39,514 nt of DNA from Microcoleus sp. LEGE 07076. Lineage in GTDB: Bacteria > Cyanobacteriota > Cyanobacteriia > Cyanobacteriales > Microcoleaceae. Under the pieces are notes generated by a model. The model saw only the letters and a list, made by a program, of their open reading frames with translations, did no database searches and was not told the DNA's origin. Numbering within the stretch: the first letter of the stretch is position 1; each line of letters begins with the position of its first letter. A program made the translations under genes and the position numbers. The stretch is from NCBI RefSeq assembly GCF_015207455.1, contig NZ_JADEWV010000044.1:1-39514 (forward strand), written 5' to 3'. Below are positions 1,653 through 30,374 of the stretch, in pieces.

Positions 1653-2630
1653 ATGCGTTCATATTCTCTCCTAGCTTCAGCAAAAATCAATCTGTATTTG
1701 GAAATAATAGGCGATCGCCCCGACGGATATCACGAACTGGCGATGGTACTTCAAAGCATAGATTTGGCCGATCGAATTGACTTGCGCGCGATCGGTACGG
1801 ACACGATTCGCGTGCGCTGCGATCACCCGCAAGTTCCTCCTGATAAAAATAATTTGGCTTACCGGGCGGCGGATTTGTTGGCGCAGCAATTCCCCGATGC
1901 TTTGGCGAAATACGGCGGAGTCGAGATTGCCATTCACAAACAGATTCCGGTGGCGGCGGGGCTCGCTGGCGGTTCGGCAAATGCGGCTGCGGTTTTAGTC
2001 GGGATGAATTTGCTGTGGCAGTTGGGGCTGACTCACTCGGAGTTGCAAGAGTTGGGGGGAACTTTGGGTTCTGATGTGCCTTTTTGTATTGCTGGAGGTA
2101 CGGCTTTGGCAACGGGCCGCGGGGATCAATTGTCTCCGCTGCCGGATTACGGCGGGTTGTATGCGGTGCTTGCTAAGTTTCGCAATCTCAGTATTTCTAC
2201 GGCATGGGCGTATCAAACTTATCGTAAGCAGTTCAGTAGTTCCTATTGTGCTGCAGAGGATTTGGACTGTCGCCGGGAACGGCTGCATTCGGGGCCGATG
2301 GTGGGGGCGATCGCCCAAAAAGATCGATCGAAAATTGGTCAGTTGCTGCACAACGATTTAGAAAAAGTGGCTTTACCCGTGTACCCGCAGGTGTTGCAAT
2401 TGCGGGAGGCTTTTGAGTCGGCGGGGGTTTTGGGAACGATGATGTCGGGTTCCGGGCCGACGGTGTTTGCGCTGGCGGAGTCTCAAGAGCAGGCTCAGCA
2501 AATTGCGGAACGGGTGAAAAGTGCGATCGCTTCTCCGGATTTGGATTTTTGGGTAGCCAAGTTTAGCAATACTGGGATTCGGATTTTTTCGGAAGGAAAT
2601 GATACGAAACCGCCGATTGTGAGGGTGTAA
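1653..2630 (+). CDS. ispE: 4-diphosphocytidyl-2-C-methyl-D-erythritol kinase
   Basis: IspE phosphorylates CDP-methylerythritol in the cytosolic MEP pathway, which supplies isoprenoid precursors for carotenoids, phytol and quinones. The 325-residue protein is a GHMP kinase. It starts with the family hallmark ASAKINLYLEI (residues 9-19, K11). The ATP-binding loop is PVAAGLAGGSAN (99-110), followed by LGSDVPF with catalytic D141, and a C-terminal SGSGPTVFA loop completes the fold. The ATG at 1653 is chosen because family members begin just before this lysine motif. A GTG at 1623 is in frame but adds ten residues that look non-homologous. No clear Shine-Dalgarno sequence is visible. Confidence 0.96.
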   Translation: MRSYSLLASAKINLYLEIIGDRPDGYHELAMVLQSIDLADRIDLRAIGTDTIRVRCDHPQVPPDKNNLAYRAADLLAQQFPDALAKYGGVEIAIHKQIPVAAGLAGGSANAAAVLVGMNLLWQLGLTHSELQELGGTLGSDVPFCIAGGTALATGRGDQLSPLPDYGGLYAVLAKFRNLSISTAWAYQTYRKQFSSSYCAAEDLDCRRERLHSGPMVGAIAQKDRSKIGQLLHNDLEKVALPVYPQVLQLREAFESAGVLGTMMSGSGPTVFALAESQEQAQQIAERVKSAIASPDLDFWVAKFSNTGIRIFSEGNDTKPPIVRV

Positions 2631-2780
2631 CTCGCAGATGGTGCGATCGCGATCGTCGGTTAAACGTCAATGGGGGCGATCGACAAAAATGAATCTAACT
2701 TTGCACAGAGTCTATTGAGATCGCAGAACTGATAAAATGACAGCAAACACAGATTTTTCTTTTGGTAAATTAACCAGAAA

Positions 2781-2808
2781 TCTAAAATCTAAAATCTAAA
2801 ATCTAAAA
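2781..2808. repeat. Heptamer tandem repeat (TCTAAAA), four units
   Basis: Four exact TCTAAAA units end five bases before the ATG of the DUF3082 gene at 2814, occupying the place of a ribosome binding site. A degenerate array of the same unit precedes sbcC (31657-31684). Confidence 0.9.
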
Positions 2809-2813
2809 TCGTC

Positions 2814-3179
2814 ATGGCTGATTTAACTAATCCAAATTCTACATCTCAACCTCTAAGTTCGGCGGGGGATGCAACGCCTGCATCTTCTAAGCAGCCGACT
2901 ATTTTGCGGTGCGTGACTGGTTCGCTGATCGCGAGTGTGTTCGCTTATGGTTTGTATTCGCTAACTATGTCGATCGCTCTAAGTTTTGCTAGCAAGCCGC
3001 TGCATTCCACCAATATTACTGTGCTTAAAATTAGTGTCGCCGTGCGAACTTTGGTAGTCGGAATGGTGGCTTTGGGTACGGGCGTGTTTGGACTCGCGGC
3101 TGTCGGTTTGATGCTGCTGGGTTTGCAAATTTTGATTCAAAAGCTGGTGAAGAAACCCGATACGTCTTCTGGTGTTTAA
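2814..3179 (+). CDS. DUF3082 domain membrane protein
   Basis: A 121-residue protein with a hydrophilic Ser/Thr/Pro-rich N-terminus (1-30) and two hydrophobic spans at about 36-60 and 74-108, ending in a basic tail. The pattern and wording match the DUF3082 family of cyanobacteria and chloroplasts, whose function is unknown. It is probably an integral (thylakoid or plasma) membrane protein. It stands alone between ispE and the minus-strand DUF488 gene. The ATG at 2814 directly follows a heptamer repeat array and there is no canonical ribosome binding site. The family call is from recognition of the sequence. Confidence 0.85.
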   Translation: MADLTNPNSTSQPLSSAGDATPASSKQPTILRCVTGSLIASVFAYGLYSLTMSIALSFASKPLHSTNITVLKISVAVRTLVVGMVALGTGVFGLAAVGLMLLGLQILIQKLVKKPDTSSGV

Positions 3180-3224
3180 GCGTTATGTCTCTTACCAAGT
3201 AAATATCAGTGCAATTATTTATTG

Positions 3225-3749
3225 TCACAGCAAGTGCCTAACTGGTAGTGAAACTAATTTGGCTAATTTCTCAGCAACATCTACCCGGTGACATTTCTCG
3301 GGATTCATTTCAGCACATAACAATAGAACTGTGCCTTGCTGAGTGATTTCTGCAACTTCACGCAAAGCAGCTTTGGCTTTTTTTTGATTGGGCGGTATCC
3401 ACTTTTGGGTACCCGATGTATTTCCTAAATCGATTTTAGAAATGTATTGAATATTTTTTGACAAGCAAAATTCTTGAATTTTATCCCCATACCATCTTCG
3501 AGTCCAAGCGCGAGGATTTTTCCTAACATCTATTACATATTTAATATTATTATTTTGTATATATGCTAAAAATAAATCGTAGTTTTGGCGATTTCCATAG
3601 CCAAAGGTAAAGATGTATTCATTCTCAAGTTGTTCGGATTCATTACATTTTTCGCAAAAATCTTCAACTTCCTCTTTATTAGTCGTACTAAGAGAAATCT
3701 GAGCTGATAGAGAAGATTCATTATTTTGGCAAAGAAGTTTGTTCATCAT
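3225..3749 (-). CDS. DUF488 family protein
   Basis: A 174-residue protein. The DUF488 core starts near residue 46 (FTFGYGNR), followed by YVIDVRKNPR (71-80) and the C-terminal family signature CAEMNPEKCHR (145-155), which carries the two conserved cysteines and the CHR triplet. The usual family length is about 120-180. The first 45 residues are an unusual extension containing FCEKC (31-35), a possible small metal site. DUF488 proteins are uncharacterised, although the CxxxxxxCHR pocket suggests an enzyme or ligand site. The start ATG-ATG at 3749 lies nine bases after the stop of the upstream partner gene, so the two form an operon. No Shine-Dalgarno sequence is obvious. The gene is AT-rich compared with its neighbours. 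Confidence 0.88.
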   Translation of the reverse strand: MMNKLLCQNNESSLSAQISLSTTNKEEVEDFCEKCNESEQLENEYIFTFGYGNRQNYDLFLAYIQNNNIKYVIDVRKNPRAWTRRWYGDKIQEFCLSKNIQYISKIDLGNTSGTQKWIPPNQKKAKAALREVAEITQQGTVLLLCAEMNPEKCHRVDVAEKLAKLVSLPVRHLL

Positions 3750-3758
3750 AATTAATAA

Positions 3759-4550
3759 TTAGAACAAGGAAAGCTGAGAAACTATTGGTGGATAAAACAA
3801 GCCAATTATCATGAAACTTTTTTTATGGTTTTTTAAGTTGCCTACTATAAAGTATAAATCCTTATCACCTAAAAATTCCACCTCTAGTTTTTGCCTTACT
3901 TTTTCGAGGGCGTCCTTTTCCTTGGCTAGTGGGGTTAAACTCTGAGATTTATCTCTACATTTCCTATAAAGTTCTTTAATTTCCCAATCACTAATACTAT
4001 ACCGATGTTCGTCGCCGTCTTCATCAATAAAATTATACCCAAACTTATAGGGGATTTTTTCAAGTTCTATTGTTGGCTCAAACAAATCTAACTGATCGAT
4101 AACTCCTTGCTGCTTTGGATTCCACTCACGTGTGGTTTCTTTACAGAAATACTTTTTAATCGTTCGTGGTTTAATAATCCCTAGAGACTTATCTTGATTT
4201 TCTATATCCCGAATCGATCTGAACTTTAGTGGTAAAACAAGTTTTTTTCGTTCACTCCAGTTATTACTCGTGTCAATTTTTTTCACAACTTCTATTGATT
4301 CATCATCTATCTTAAAACTCTCCAATCTATAATCTTTATTATCTCTTTCGATTTTAGCACTTATAATAGACCATCTTGGATAACGCCGATCGAAATCTAA
4401 TTGTCGGAAGCGAATAGGATAAATGCGAACTCACTTAAGTGGTTTTTCTTCATCATCCAAGATAACTCCCGCTGTGCATACCGTTTCTCGGTACTTTGTA
4501 CTAATTGATGGATATGTTTTGGTTGCAATTAATATTTTTTCCCTTTCCAT
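3759..4550 (-). pseudogene. DUF488-associated protein gene, interrupted by an in-frame TGA
   Basis: Read from the ATG at 4550, the minus strand codes for 39 residues (start MEREKILIATKTYPS), then TGA at 4433-4431. It then continues in the same frame for another 223 codons to the stop at 3759. The segment right after the TGA (VRIYPIRFRQLDFDRRYPRW) is clearly protein-like but contains no start codon until a TTG at 4325. That TTG would remove the best-conserved-looking block. The TGA sits where a Trp would fit well (PLK-W-VRIYPIRF), so a single TGG-to-TGA change explains it. The intact product would be about 263 residues. Its function is unknown, and its only clue is the tight operon with DUF488. 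Alternatives are a sequencing error, TGA readthrough, or a shortened product from TTG 4325 (188 residues). Confidence 0.75.
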
Positions 4551-4939
4551 AATTTTTATTCTTGATAATTGCATTTTTATATGCAATCGCTAGTGATATG
4601 TTTATAGATACCATAAAATATAATTTATGGCAATAGCGAAGACATTTTCCAGAATGAGTAGTAGTATATCCCAAATGGTTAGAGTTGGGCGCTTCACCGC
4701 AAAAACCTTGTTTGGTAACAGTGAGTTTGAGTATGCCTTGGCTGCCGGATGATTGGGAGGGAGATGACCCTTGTTGGAAGTTGATTGCGGGCGTGATAGA
4801 GTTGCCGGAAGCTCTGGTTCATGATGAAGTTTTGTTTTGACCAAAAGGGGCTATCGATTATTTTTTTCTTTTTATTTCCCACAAAAACTCCGTTCGTGCT
4901 ATAATTCTGCGGGACTTTAGCAAAAAGGGGTGCTTTTGC
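4551..4939. other. Intergenic stretch with one possible small ORF
   Basis: AT-rich spacer between the divergent DUF488 operon and the coiled-coil gene. It holds the promoter zone of both and the possible 35-residue ORF at 4733-4840. A TATAAT hexamer at 4900-4905 lies 35 bases before the ATG at 4940 and may be the -10 box of that gene, but no good -35 box is visible. Minus-strand open frames here have no protein-like features. Confidence 0.5.
4733..4840 (+). CDS. Possible small protein (35 residues)
   Basis: The frame starting at ATG 4733 (or GTG 4721) encodes MPWLPDDWEGDDPCWKLIAG and continues to a TGA at 4838-4840. Its Trp- and Asp-rich composition is more protein-like than chance frames in this AT-rich spacer. 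There is no strong ribosome binding site and I do not recognise the sequence. It could be a real micro-protein or the tail of a decayed gene. Confidence 0.3.
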   Translation: MPWLPDDWEGDDPCWKLIAGVIELPEALVHDEVLF

Positions 4940-5668
4940 ATGAAAGCAGAATTTTATTATGATTGTCACAAATATATTTGCAGTTTAGTTCAAGTTGATT
5001 TTGTTAAAGAATTAAAAGTTAAAAATCATCAAGGTTTTGTGTTGGCTGTTAAGCAAGGTGAAAAGATTGGGCTTTTGGGGAAAAGTCGGCATAATGCTAA
5101 ACAAATTGATGTTTCTAAGCCTCATTTTTATAATGTGATTAAAGCAGCTATGAGCGCTTTGGAATTAGAAACTAGAAATGAGGTGATATTAGAGAGGAAT
5201 CGCACGATTGCTGATGGTGAAGATACGATTCAGCAGCAAAACCGAGAAATTCGTCTTTTGAATGAACAGCTTAGAATTCAAGCGACTCAGATTGAGCAAT
5301 TGTCAAGGGAAAACCAGCAGTTATCGGTGCAGTTTGTAGAGAAGGAAATTAGAGAAACTCCAATTAATTTAGCCACCCAGGAAAATTTAGCTGCGGTGGG
5401 AATTGAGGAGGGAAGTGGAGAAGCTGAAATTAGTCAAAAAATTGATGATTTGCCGATTATAGATTCTGGGTTAGAGGTGCATTTAATCGAAAATCAGCAG
5501 GATTTGGAGGAGGTTGAGATAGCGGAAACAATCAGCGAGGGCGGTGTTGAAGTTGTTGATTTAGAAATCATAGAAGAAGTAGACGCTGTATTAGAAGTTG
5601 CAGGAGGTGAAACCGAAATTAAGCACCTACCGAAAAGGGGTTCACAGAGAAAGGCGAGAAAGAAATAA
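4940..5668 (+). CDS. Hypothetical coiled-coil protein with acidic C-terminal half
   Basis: A 242-residue protein not recognised as a named family. Residues 1-60 are basic and mixed, with two cysteines (YDCHKYIC). Residues about 75-125 form a heptad-like, Gln/Glu/Leu-rich coiled coil (IQQQNREIRLLNEQLRIQ). Residues 130-225 are strongly acidic and rich in Glu, Ile and Val. The last 15 residues are very basic (KRGSQRKARKK), a possible nucleic-acid or membrane-lipid contact. No signal peptide or membrane span is present. It stands alone, and a TATAAT hexamer lies 35 bases upstream. Its base composition is lower in G+C than the housekeeping genes, so recent acquisition is possible. A structural or adaptor role is only a guess. 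Confidence 0.7.
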   Translation: MKAEFYYDCHKYICSLVQVDFVKELKVKNHQGFVLAVKQGEKIGLLGKSRHNAKQIDVSKPHFYNVIKAAMSALELETRNEVILERNRTIADGEDTIQQQNREIRLLNEQLRIQATQIEQLSRENQQLSVQFVEKEIRETPINLATQENLAAVGIEEGSGEAEISQKIDDLPIIDSGLEVHLIENQQDLEEVEIAETISEGGVEVVDLEIIEEVDAVLEVAGGETEIKHLPKRGSQRKARKK

Positions 5669-5713
5669 TCAAAGATTTTAATTTTTTTTTAAGGCTCAAA
5701 GGTTCGCAGTTAG

Positions 5714-5872
5714 GACTTTAGGAATGAAAATTTAATAACTTAAGCGATTGCTCGTTACCAGGCTCTGCCTGGTAATGCAGATAGGCGAGGCTCTGCCTCC
5801 GTTTGATCTGGCAACTTACAGGAGAGAAGACTGTAGGAGGTGTTTAAGTTATTAAGTTTTCGATCCTTAGTC
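5714..5872. mobile_element. MITE-like element with about 20-bp imperfect terminal inverted repeats
   Basis: Both ends read GACT..AGGA..GAAAA..TTAATAAC in inverted orientation. The inner 12 bp (5732-5743 and 5844-5855) are perfect. The interior holds two small hairpins sharing the core GGCTCTGCC, at 5755-5775 (9-bp arms) and 5787-5799 (5-bp arms). A second element with the same ends but a different interior lies at 27475-27583. There is no coding capacity. Mobilisation by a transposase elsewhere is inference. Confidence 0.65.
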
Positions 5873-6209
5873 CGCCTTCAAGAAAAACTGAATTCCGAAC
5901 GATCGAACCTTTGATACTTTATTATGGGTTGGGATTTTGCAAAATTTCTCTAATTTTTGTCCGAAATAGACGCACGGCGGATCTTTGTCCGATCGCCCTG
6001 CTTTGTTGGATAAATTCGGGTATTTCTGCGATCGGAAAAAAGGGAAAAGCTAAAAGTAAGAAGAGCTTGACATACATCCGCTATCTACGATATATTTATG
6101 TTATATTTAGTATTTTACCGCAACTGCGATATGATTCTAAGTTAGACCTAAAAAAATATCTGAGTAGTCTATGCTTGGAAAATAGTTAAATATTAAGCTC
6201 AGTCGTATT
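5873..6209. promoter_or_regulatory. Leader region of parA with sigma-70-like promoter
   Basis: The spacer starts with a repeat tail (CCGAACGATCGAACCT at 5895-5910, also present at 11548-11563). A good promoter follows: TTGACA at 6067-6072, an 18-base spacer, and TATATT at 6091-6096. It would give the parA mRNA a leader of roughly 120 bases. An open frame across this stretch shows no protein-like composition and was not called. Confidence 0.55.
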
Positions 6210-7903: not shown

Positions 7904-10900
7904 ATGAATAGCAGATTCCTCGATCGACTCCACCACCCCTCGCGCCCCGTCATCGTCTTCGACGGCGCAATGGGAACCAACCTGCAAGTCCAAAACCTCA
8001 CCGCAGAAGACTTCGGCGGCAAAGAATACGAAGGCTGCAACGAATATCTCGTGCACACCAAGCCGGAAGCCGTCGCCAAGGTGCACCGGGGATTCCTAGA
8101 AGCAGGGGCCGATGTCATCGAAACAGACACCTTTGGCGCTGCTTCCATCGTGCTCGCCGAGTACGATTTAGCCGACAAAGCCTATTATCTCAACAAAACT
8201 GCCGCCGAACTCGCCAAAGCTATCGCAGCCGAATTTGACACGCCAGAAAAACCGAGATTTGTTGCAGGATCGATCGGCCCTGGCACCAAATTGCCAACAT
8301 TAGGACACATCGATTTCGACACGCTAACCGCCGCTTTTACCGAACAAGCAGAAGGACTTTATGACGGCGGCGTTGACTTATTTATTGTCGAAACTTGTCA
8401 AGATGTGCTGCAAATTAAATCAGCATTAAATGCCATCGAAGAAGTATTTAAGAAAAAAGGCGCGCGGATTCCATTAATGGTATCAGTCACAATGGAAGCC
8501 ACCGGCACAATGCTAGTCGGTTCCGACATCAGCGCCGCTTTAGCTATTTTGCAGCCCTATCCCATAGATATTTTAGGATTAAACTGCGCCACCGGGCCCG
8601 ATCGCATGGCGGAACACGTCAAATACCTTTCCGAACATTCGCCCTTTGTCGTTTCCTGCGTTCCCAACGCCGGTTTACCCGAAAACATTGGCGGCCACGC
8701 GCACTACAAACTCACGCCCATAGAATTAAAAATGGCCTTGATGCGCTTCGTCGAAGACTTAGGCGTGCAAGTCATCGGTGGCTGCTGCGGCACCCGCTAC
8801 GATCACATCCGCGAACTGTCAGAAATTGGCACAACTCTTAAACCCAAGATTCGCGAAATTAGCTGGGAACCAGCCGCTGCTTCAATTTATAGCGCCCAAC
8901 CCTACGAACAAGAAAATTCTTTCTTAATTGTCGGCGAAAAACTCAACGCCAGCGGTTCCAAAAAATGCCGCGATTTGCTAAATGCCGAAGACTGGGACGG
9001 TTTAGTCGCAATGGCTAGGGAACAAGTGCGAGAAGGCGCGCACGTTCTCGATGTCAACGTCGATTATGTCGGCCGCGACGGCGTGCGCGATATGAAAGAA
9101 TTAGTTTCTCGCGTTGTGACTAATGCAACTCTCCCTTTAATGTTGGATTCCACCGAGTGGGAAAAGATGGAAGCTGGCTTGAAAGTGGCGGGCGGCAAAT
9201 GTTTGCTAAATTCTACTAACTACGAAGACGGAGAACCGCGTTTTTATCAAGTTTTGGAGTTGGCTAAAAAATACGGCGCGGGGATAGTAATCGGGACGAT
9301 TGATGAAGATGGGATGGCCAGAACTGCTGACCAAAAATTTGCGATCGCCCACCGCGCCTACAACGCCGCTGTCGCCTACGGAATTCCAGCCTCAGAACTC
9401 TTTTTTGACACCCTGGCTTTGCCAATTTCTACCGGGATTGAAGAAGACCGAAAAAACGGCAAAGCTACCATCGAATCGATCCGCCGCATCCGCCAAGAAT
9501 TGCCAGGTTGTCATGTGATTTTAGGAGTTTCTAATATTTCTTTTGGCTTGAATCCGGCGGCGCGGCAAGTTTTGAATTCTATGTTTTTGCACGAAGCGAT
9601 GCAGGCGGGGATGGATTCGGCAATTATCAGCGCTAATAAGATTTTGCCGATCGCCAAAATCGACCCCAAACACCAAGAAATCTGCCGTAAACTGATTTAC
9701 GACGAACGGGAGTTCGACGGCGAAATTTGTGTTTATGACCCCTTGGGCGACCTGACAACGGTGTTTGCGGGCAAAACTACCAAGCGCGATCGCACCGAAG
9801 ACGCAAACCTGCCCGTAGAACAACGCCTGAAGCAGCACATCATCGACGGCGAACGCATCGGGCTCGACATCCAACTCGCCAAAGCATTAGAAACCTATCC
9901 GCCGCTGCAAATTATCAATACCTTCTTGTTAGACGGCATGAAAGTAGTCGGAGAATTGTTCGGTTCGGGACAAATGCAGCTACCATTTGTATTGCAGTCA
10001 GCAGAAACCATGAAAGCCGCAGTTGCTTATTTAGAACCGTACATGGAAAAGTCCGAATCTGGGGACAATGCTAAAGGCACATTTATCATTGCGACTGTCA
10101 AAGGCGATGTTCACGACATCGGCAAAAACTTGGTTGATATTATCTTATCAAACAACGGCTACCGAGTGATTAATTTGGGAATTAAACAGCCAGTTGACAA
10201 TATCATCGAAGCTTACGAAAAGCACAAAGCCGATTGTATTGCGATGAGCGGCTTGTTGGTGAAATCCACTGCTTTTATGAAGGAAAATCTGGAGGTATTC
10301 AACCAAAAAGGAATTACTGTTCCCGTGATTTTGGGCGGTGCGGCTTTGACTCCCAAGTTTGTGCATGAAGACTGCCAAAATACGTATAAAGGTAAAGTTG
10401 TTTACGGCAAAGATGCGTTTTCTGACTTGCATTTTATGGACAAACTGATGCCAGCCAAATCTGCTGGTAACTGGGAAGATTTGGCTGGATTTTTAGATGA
10501 AGCTGAAAATGGCAACGGGGCTGTCAAAGCAGCTAAAAGTTCGGCAGAAACCGCCGTAGGAGATGCCGAAACAGCAGACACTCCGGTGATTGTTGATACC
10601 AAGCGTTCCGAAGCAGTTGATGCAAATATCGATCGCCCAAATCCTCCTTTCTGGGGAACAAAACTGTTATCGTCCGAAGATATCCCCTTTGAAGAACTTT
10701 TATGGCACTTGGATTTGCAAGCCTTAGTTGCGGGACAGTGGCAATTCCGCAAGCCAAAAGACCAATCGCGGGAAGAATACGATGCTTTCTTAGCTGAGAA
10801 AGTCTATCCAATCTTGGAGGAGTGGAAACACAAAATCATCAATGAGAAGCTGTTGCATCCCCAAGCAATTTACGGGTATTTTCCTTGTCAGTCTGAAGGC

Positions 10901-11455
10901 AATTCTTTGCATTTATATGACCCAGAAATTATGAATAACGGGCAAGATGTATCGACACCCGCAGCAACATTCACCTTTCCCCGGCAAAAATCGGCGCGCA
11001 GGCTGTGCATTGCCGACTTCTTCGCGCCCAAAGAATCGGGTAAAATCGATGTATTTCCGATGCAAGTAGCGACGGTGGGAGAAGTTGCTACGGAGTACGC
11101 GCAAAAGCTGTTTGCTAACAATCAATATACCGATTATCTCTACTTCCACGGGTTGGCGGTACAGACGGCGGAAGCGGTAGCAGAATGGACTCACGCGCGG
11201 ATTCGCCGAGAATTGGGTTTTGGTAGCGAAGAACCGGACAATATTCGGGATATGCTAGCGCAGAGATATCGGGGTTCGCGGTACAGTTTTGGCTATCCTG
11301 CTTGTCCGAATATGGCGGATCAGTACAAGCAATTGGAGTTGTTGAAGTGCGATCGGATCAACTTGTATATGGATGAAAGCGAGCAGCTTTATCCCGAACA
11401 ATCAACTACCGCAATTATCACCTATCACCCAGCGGCTAAATACTTTACCGCTTAA
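7904..11455 (+). CDS. metH: Cobalamin-dependent methionine synthase
   Basis: MetH transfers a methyl group from 5-methyltetrahydrofolate to homocysteine via methylcobalamin. The 1183-residue protein has the full four-module order. The homocysteine domain (about 1-320) carries the zinc cysteines C228 (GLNCATGP) and C294/C295 (GGCCGT). The pterin-binding domain spans about 340-600 ([15 protein letters not shown]). The cap plus B12 domain (about 640-870) has the cobalt-ligand motif DVHDIGKN with H737. The C-terminal AdoMet reactivation domain (about 920-1183) contains [10 protein letters not shown]. An Ala/Glu/Thr-rich linker near 870-905 joins the last two modules. Length and order match E. coli MetH. 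Single gene, no visible riboswitch; it converges with the minus-strand membrane gene across a hairpin. Confidence 0.98.
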
Positions 11456-11504
11456 TTTGTAGGGTGGGTGCGGATTAAACTATCGCCCATTTCAATTGAG
11501 CGGG

Positions 11505-11634
11505 TTCGTAGTGCGGACTTTAGTCCGCATTTAATAAAAACTAAAGTCCGAACGATCGAACCTGTTTGATAATTGGTTTGTAGTGCGGACTTTAGTCCGC
11601 ATTTAAGAAGGACTAAAGTCCTCACTACGAACCT
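11505..11634. repeat. Two tandem copies of a palindromic repeat
   Basis: Two direct copies (about 11505-11563 and 11577-11634) share the core GTGCGGACTTTAGTCCGCAT. The second copy is itself an inverted repeat, with arms 11580-11598 and 11610-11628 matching at 18 of 19 positions. The first ends in CGAACGATCGAACCT, also found at 5896-5910. This is a non-coding dispersed element between convergent genes. Confidence 0.8.
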
Positions 11635-11648
11635 GGCTGGAAAGACAA

Positions 11649-14303: not shown

Positions 14304-14341
14304 TTAGTCAGTAGTCAGTTGGCAGTAGTCATTGGGGAATT

Positions 14342-14411
14342 GTTAGCTGTTGACTGTTAGCTGTTAACTGTTAACTGTTAGCTGCAAACTGTCAACTGCA
14401 AACTGTCAACT
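14342..14411. repeat. Heptamer tandem repeat (GTTAACT type), ten units
   Basis: Ten uninterrupted 7-base units (GTTAGCT, GTTGACT, GTTAACT, GCAAACT, GTCAACT variants) end seven bases before the ATG of the methyltransferase gene at 14419. It is the longest such array here. It fills the untranslated leader and leaves no room for a normal ribosome binding site. Confidence 0.92.
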
Positions 14412-14418
14412 GATTAAT

Positions 14419-27289: not shown

Positions 27290-27340
27290 ACAAGTAGGGG
27301 CAATCCCACGCATGATATCAATTCCGGTTGCACTACTCAT

Positions 27341-27364
27341 GACTGTTGACTGTTGACTGTTGAC
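27341..27364. repeat. Heptamer tandem repeat (GACTGTT), three units
   Basis: Three exact GACTGTT units plus GAC. The unit is related to the GTTAACT array at 14342-14411. Confidence 0.85.
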
Positions 27365-30313: not shown

Positions 30314-30374
30314 TTCCGTGTTCCATCTTCCATCTTCCATCTTCCGTCTTCCTTCTTCCTTCTTCCTTCTTCCT
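30314..30374. repeat. Heptamer tandem repeat (TTCCATC/TTCCTTC), eight units
   Basis: Eight 7-base units (TTCCGTG, three TTCCATC, TTCCGTC, three TTCCTTC) plus TTCCT run directly into the sbcD ATG at 30375. The array is pure pyrimidine apart from a few A and G and leaves no purine-rich ribosome binding site. Confidence 0.92.

Follow-up and report, generated by a model that had tools for sequence, protein, structure and literature searches.

An in-frame TGA at a conserved tryptophan codon of a candidate defence gene in Microcoleus: a probable recent inactivation, and recurrent breakage of related genes in cyanobacteria

The stretch of DNA analysed here (termed the window) comprises 39,514 nucleotides of a contig of Microcoleus sp. 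LEGE 07076. The segment under study displays the following features, listed in order of position.

2814..3179, plus strand: DUF3082 gene, the conserved left flank of a site at which modules are exchanged (swap site)
3225..3749, minus strand: DUF488 gene (PDC-M19A), open, 174 aa, 9 nt behind M19B
3759..4430, minus strand: M19B codons 41–263 with the gene's own TAA stop; rest of predicted OB fold 1, and OB fold 2
3759..4325, minus strand: 188-aa open reading frame called mechanically from a TTG, without the first 75 M19B residues
4431..4433, minus strand: in-frame TGA, codon 40 of M19B, a Trp codon in nearly all cyanobacterial loci that cover it
4434..4550, minus strand: M19B codons 1–39 with the ATG start at 4550, aligned to intact homologues; first strands of predicted OB fold 1
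4664..4840, plus strand: C-terminal remnant (residues 171–223) of a DuOB gene (PDC-M45A), left by a module that was probably at the site formerly
4940..5668, plus strand: conserved open reading frame, the right flank of the swap site

On the minus strand, positions 4550–3759 read as 39 codons, a TGA (4433–4431), 223 codons and a TAA, i.e. a gene of 263 codons. When the two parts are joined with an X at the stop, the frame matches the PADLOC model PDLC04508 (PDC-M19B) from protein position 1 to 263 and profile position 1 to 269 of 269 (E = 1.4e-70). Thus the parts on both sides of the TGA are one gene. The TGA is the sole disruption of this M19B, with no further stop or frameshift, and a profile search of the window's own genome yields this single M19B match and no other copy. 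Pfam and NCBIfam gave no match at E ≤ 0.1 for the joined frame. An earlier note on this DNA had described a minus-strand TGA at 4433–4431 splitting a gene whose DUF488 partner is intact; the coordinates are right, the full-length family match of the joined translation spans both sides of the stop, and the partner has an open frame.

The adjacent M19A matches PADLOC PDLC04505 (E = 4.9e-17) and DUF488 (E = 2.8e-15). M19B is matched over its length (X at the stop) with M19A next to it, which places the locus in PDC-M19. As both genes match the PADLOC models, the pair is, on sequence grounds, a candidate phage-defence module. A working copy, by a criterion of this analysis and not of PADLOC, has both genes open; the window's pair, with its stop in M19B, is a broken member. 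A literature search by the name PDC-M19 found no paper, and none of the papers listed for DUF488 tests DUF488 in defence or the DUF488/M19B pair.

The nearest locus is found in "Filamentous cyanobacterium Phorm 6" (L002, genome G028; termed the sister). It is syntenic, with 91% identity across 2.9 kb, and its M19B is open, with 265 codons and a Trp at codon 40. The codon-40 column is covered by 62 of 65 cyanobacterial loci (three are without it) and is W (TGG) in 60; the exceptions are the window stop and an Arg in L035, a copy whose M19B is itself disrupted farther downstream. This agrees with the earlier note, which had held that the position suits Trp (a TGG to TGA change), and the comparison with the open sister copy points the same way. 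Of 20 relatives on viral contigs, 13 have W at this column, four have L, two F and one M, so the site is hydrophobic and not strictly Trp. In the sister M19B model codon 40 sits within a predicted strand (37–46). All 47 unbroken cyanobacterial M19B copies align from residue 1–4, with a start codon there or upstream.

The structural model of the intact sister M19B, made with a 24-row alignment (A4), has a pLDDT of 91.5 and a pTM of 0.88 and shows two tandem OB folds; M19B is thus predicted to be a tandem OB-fold protein. A Foldseek search of this model against the PDB gave baculovirus LEF-3 as top match (5.6e-5), together with archaeal RPA and HIN-200 DNA sensors, over both halves. VIA-align superposed the sister M19B on LEF-3 with Z = 7.5 (the best), over 177 residues with an rmsd of 7.7. 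Because this Z is below the level of a specific match and OB folds are common, the LEF-3 similarity identifies the fold class and nothing more specific. Sequence searches of solved structures with M19B gave four weak matches (best E = 0.059), and a second search none. The DUF488 (M19A) model is modest (pLDDT 76.1), and its fold search of the PDB yielded no match at E ≤ 0.001. Sequence matches of DUF488 to complement C9 (E = 0.006) were taken as chance.

Judging from the predicted fold, intact M19B may bind single-stranded or distorted nucleic acid, e.g. that of an invading element. Its partner in this action would be DUF488, a small protein of the alpha/beta type that carries a conserved C..CHR motif and, as a guess, would be the enzymatic part of the pair. 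The 39-residue product made in the window strain would presumably be inert and the system off, and a 188-residue restart product would miss most of OB fold 1. Lost translational coupling may additionally lower DUF488.

The age of the stop can be approached from the divergence between window and sister. M19B has a dN/dS of 0.207 (dS 0.160) and M19A of 0.256 (dS 0.268). With an outgroup, lineage-specific M19B changes (nonsynonymous:synonymous, N:S) are 6:9 in the window and 8:7 in the sister, a comparison of 15 with 15 changes that has little power. The end branch of the M19B tree is shorter for the window (0.023) than for the sister (0.051). The low dN/dS, the lack of a relaxed N:S and the shorter branch suggest that M19B was under selection until recently, and fit one of the options in the earlier note, that of a gene freshly inactivated. 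The window most likely owes its TGA to a recent nonsense mutation, and it probably holds a two-gene PDC-M19 module (M19B, M19A) in which a single nonsense substitution, at the codon of a conserved Trp, has inactivated M19B in the recent past.

The same unrelaxed pattern would be seen if the TGA were a sequencing or assembly error and M19B actually intact; the stop is moreover a lone substitution in a frame that is otherwise open, and the genome is a draft in 495 contigs. Substitution errors, however, seldom occur in assembled contigs, and 18 of the 65 cyanobacterial M19B copies are disrupted, seven of them (window included) by stops alone, some of which could also be errors. On these two grounds real breakage is far higher a priori, and an error is unlikely. 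Read-through or suppression of the TGA, giving some full-length M19B, was kept as an option because it too would yield the picture of unrelaxed change, with a frame downstream that is open and conserved and has a low dN/dS. It is nevertheless quite improbable: a TGA at codon 40 occurs in none of the other loci of the 62-locus set, no tRNA-Sec lies above the cut-off in the genome, and ARAGORN, given eight loci, reports no TGA-reading anticodon. The stops of other disrupted copies sit elsewhere and are of all three types. Across all broken copies, the window's included, stops fall at codons 2, 3, 22, 40 (the window), 58, 60, 162, 189, 199 and 223 in sister numbering and at 239 in that of a second subtype; L095, a decayed copy, has additional ones.

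A shortened working protein starting internally at TTG 4325 has in its favor the 188-aa open reading frame. Such a protein would lack residues 1–75, where five of the strands predicted for OB fold 1 lie, as do the invariant P14, S17, C25, A27, R42, Y44, P45, R49, D73 and R75. The earlier note had named homologues that begin at the TTG position and never contain the upstream block as contrary to its own reading; none of the 47 unbroken copies begins there, and an internal start is very improbable. Two further ideas were discarded: that the stop is programmed at one set position, since stop sites differ between broken copies and comprise all three kinds, and that the code reads TGA as Trp or selenocysteine, on the tRNA-Sec and ARAGORN results given above. 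A separate contig of the window's genome (C145 of G000, locus L137, positions 1936–5999) displays 23 tRNA genes arrayed in about 4 kb.

A different role for the stop was also considered, a stop-gated defence. Opal stops at Trp codons would silence M19B in some strains, and a phage's TGA-reading tRNA or weakened termination would make it whole, so that the invader itself would arm the system. Two copies, open apart from these codons, have stops of no other kind than Trp-to-TGA. One is the window copy (codon 40), on whose branch no relaxation is seen; the other is L084 (genome G460, 1480–2274), free of frameshifts, in which the Trp codons 60 and 189 are both TGA. Among the nine stops of the seven stop-only copies three are Trp-to-TGA, against 5.9% expected per stop (P = 0.013, a comparison chosen post hoc); counted by copies it is 2/7 (P = 0.06). 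Relaxation of L084 is absent with one outgroup (N:S 37:34 vs 43:49, P = 0.53) and present with another (52:32 vs 32:49, P = 0.005). Stop-bearing copies other than the window's mostly have a slightly raised N:S: besides L084, these are L006 (43:39 vs 27:36 and 24:34, P > 0.2) and L035 (22:41 vs 15:42 and 24:44 vs 17:41, P > 0.2). We regard stop-gated defence as highly improbable.

Taken by itself, the lone stop in the window M19B is ordinary; more noteworthy are repeated one-sided decay of the pair and a swap of modules at its site. The M19B model was searched in 388 genomes of the class, with matches in 25, and in 388 genomes of the order, with matches in 45; three are shared, leaving 67 genomes. 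With three further loci and one second copy added, and five contig-edge genomes (G085, G253, G335, G345, G510) and one identical remnant removed, 65 loci were judged. Loci left out as 100% identical are L005 (= L079) and L097 (= L096). Excluded as repeats are L001, L008, L009, L011, L012 and L083 (window and sister loci), L007 and L010 (= L102), L052 and L057 (= L103), and L053, L056 and L055 (= L104–L106).

The 18 broken M19B copies are disrupted at differing sites. Seven are broken by stops alone (L006, L035, the window as L044, L049, L080, L084, L087), e.g. L080 (genome G480) with a stop at codon 3. Eleven show frameshift, truncation or heavy decay (L089, L091, L092, L093, L095, L096, L098, L099, L100, L102, L103), e.g. 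L089 with a near-start frameshift plus a stop. L102 was scored broken with some doubt, its M19B similarity starting 135 bases from the contig start, after other sequence. A borderline case, L079 (genome G644), where a frameshift costs about the last 11 residues, was scored open because the lost tail lies outside the fold. Broken copies are spread across the 65-protein tree: the "broken" label requires 15 changes for 18 rows, much as with shuffled labels (mean, 15.9), and well-supported branches alone require at least seven.

DUF488 is open, with a start codon, in 13 of the 18 loci with a broken M19B, and is damaged, missing or startless in five (L091, L096, L098, L099, L100); in L099 the frame is open with no standard start codon before the domain. 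Where M19B is open, DUF488 is open in 47/47 loci; none of them pairs an open M19B with a broken DUF488. Loci with only M19B broken thus stand to loci with only M19A broken as 13:0 (sign test P = 0.00024, or 0.003 if the chance of M19B being the target is set to 0.646 by length). In the same 67 genomes M19B shows internal stops in 13 of 75 match rows (from 10 genomes), AbiEii in 0 of 40 matches (Fisher 0.004) and N6_Mtase in 6 among the 150 matches listed (hand count; Fisher 0.0015); these comparisons with control families are rough, since rows are non-independent and the families differ in match length. We propose that the module is a burden or can be spared, and that it decays often, the OB partner going first in most cases.

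The one-sided decay hints at which half of a widespread pair is costly. Harm may come from M19B, with M19A holding it in check in the manner of a toxin-antitoxin pair; M19B could then be lost alone and M19A could not. The 13 loci with M19B broken and M19A open, against none of the reverse among 65, are consistent with this. At the swap site in the genus, moreover, ten of the 22 genomes with PDC-M45 lack its dual-OB gene (M45A, DuOB) or have mere fragments of it, while one DUF488 gene (M45B) is found in all 22, with a stop in two of those ten. However, DUF488 may just serve a second role of its own, and M19A has itself suffered in the five loci named above. In addition, the ten genomes without a whole M45A also have no more than scraps, if anything, of M45C, the other DUF488 gene of PDC-M45; since the two vanish together, loss is not restricted to OB genes. 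A harmful M19B is accordingly a tentative reading, and somewhat doubtful.

The swap site is bounded by the DUF3082 gene and the open reading frame at 4940–5668. Of 29 genomes examined in the genus, 27 have the flanking DNA (window, sister and 25 others), and between the flanks two kinds of module are found, PDC-M45 or M19. PDC-M45 is complete in 12 of the 27, where a gene of the Pfam family DuOB (E = 1.3e-41) is joined by a pair of DUF488 genes; M45B is alone in nine and accompanied by scraps of the module's other genes in one. M19 or its remains lie in five, on the strand opposite to PDC-M45. The sister copy is intact and the window copy (G000) has one TGA. In G014 the first 185 M19B residues are missing and the locus is split over two contigs; G009 has M19A in pieces and no M19B, and in G023 only the last 27 residues of M19A remain. 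Within a single genus this site shows a candidate defence module dying, with copies that are intact, hit once, truncated or reduced to remnants.

The same DuOB tail (residues 171–223) is retained in the window, the sister and G014. Because all three keep the same tail, M19 probably replaced M45 once, before these three lineages parted. In G014 (L147 at a contig end; L102 at 1–135) the DuOB tail is followed at the contig end by what looks by eye like a transposase fragment.

Repeats are present elsewhere in the window. Tandem arrays of 7-base units, the units differing between arrays, lie at 127–160, 2778–2810, 14341–14417, 27340–27364 and 30321–30374. Behind the open reading frame at 4940–5668, a 25-base stretch (5694–5718) is found in four copies in a relative (L019, 1181–1446) at steps of 121, 60 and 60 bases. 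At 11503–11635, just behind a long open reading frame (7904–11455) that by eye resembles methionine synthase, a unit of 72 bases is present almost twice over.

M19B also occurs on plasmids (23 records) and in phages (7 records), for which reason the pair is called mobile. On a Fischerella plasmid the DUF488 gene adjoins M19B. In Sulfolobus islandicus pSOG1 (L168, 1436–3361) a fusion of ParB_N, HTH_ParB and DUF488 directly precedes M19B. Gordonia phage Eviarto (L167, 1527–3774) displays M19B directly after an annotated immunity repressor and near an integrase, with DUF488 behind it on the opposite strand. A viral scan with the single M19B protein found nothing; one with the M19B alignment found 27 viral-contig loci, 26 of which (near-copies included) have a DUF488 gene beside M19B. 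In two, L132 and L133, M19B is likewise broken. Alignment A4 took 20 of the 27 and omitted near-copies (L119, L121, L129), partial sequences (L128, L130, L133) and the frameshifted L132.

Among known systems the pair in the window is closest to PADLOC PDC-M19: both models are matched and adjacent, in the B-then-A order of most cyanobacterial loci, and the pair differs by the stop within M19B. A fusion of DUF488 with an HTH domain (ParB-CTPase fold, archaea), of the type seen on pSOG1, is reported to bind CTP (PMC12704722); relative to the fusion as given there, the DUF488 of the window is stand-alone and without the ParB part. The Pfam family DuOB (PF22557) has two OB folds, as does the predicted M19B model. 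The DuOB model gave no match for the sister M19B or for 22 rows of an alignment (A1), and a sub-threshold one for the Gordonia phage M19B (18.6 bits, E = 0.0021; cut-off 27 bits). A sequence link between M19B and DuOB by profile comparison was rejected as not significant (E = 0.076 across 15 columns). PADLOC PDC-M45 differs in having two DUF488 genes (M45B and M45C), and its M45A is a DuOB member, whereas the M19B family of the window is unmatched by that model. PDC-M45 likewise combines DUF488 with a dual-OB protein, and it occupies the same chromosomal site in sister species; this swap of M45 and M19 supports the view that DUF488 with a dual-OB partner is a general module.
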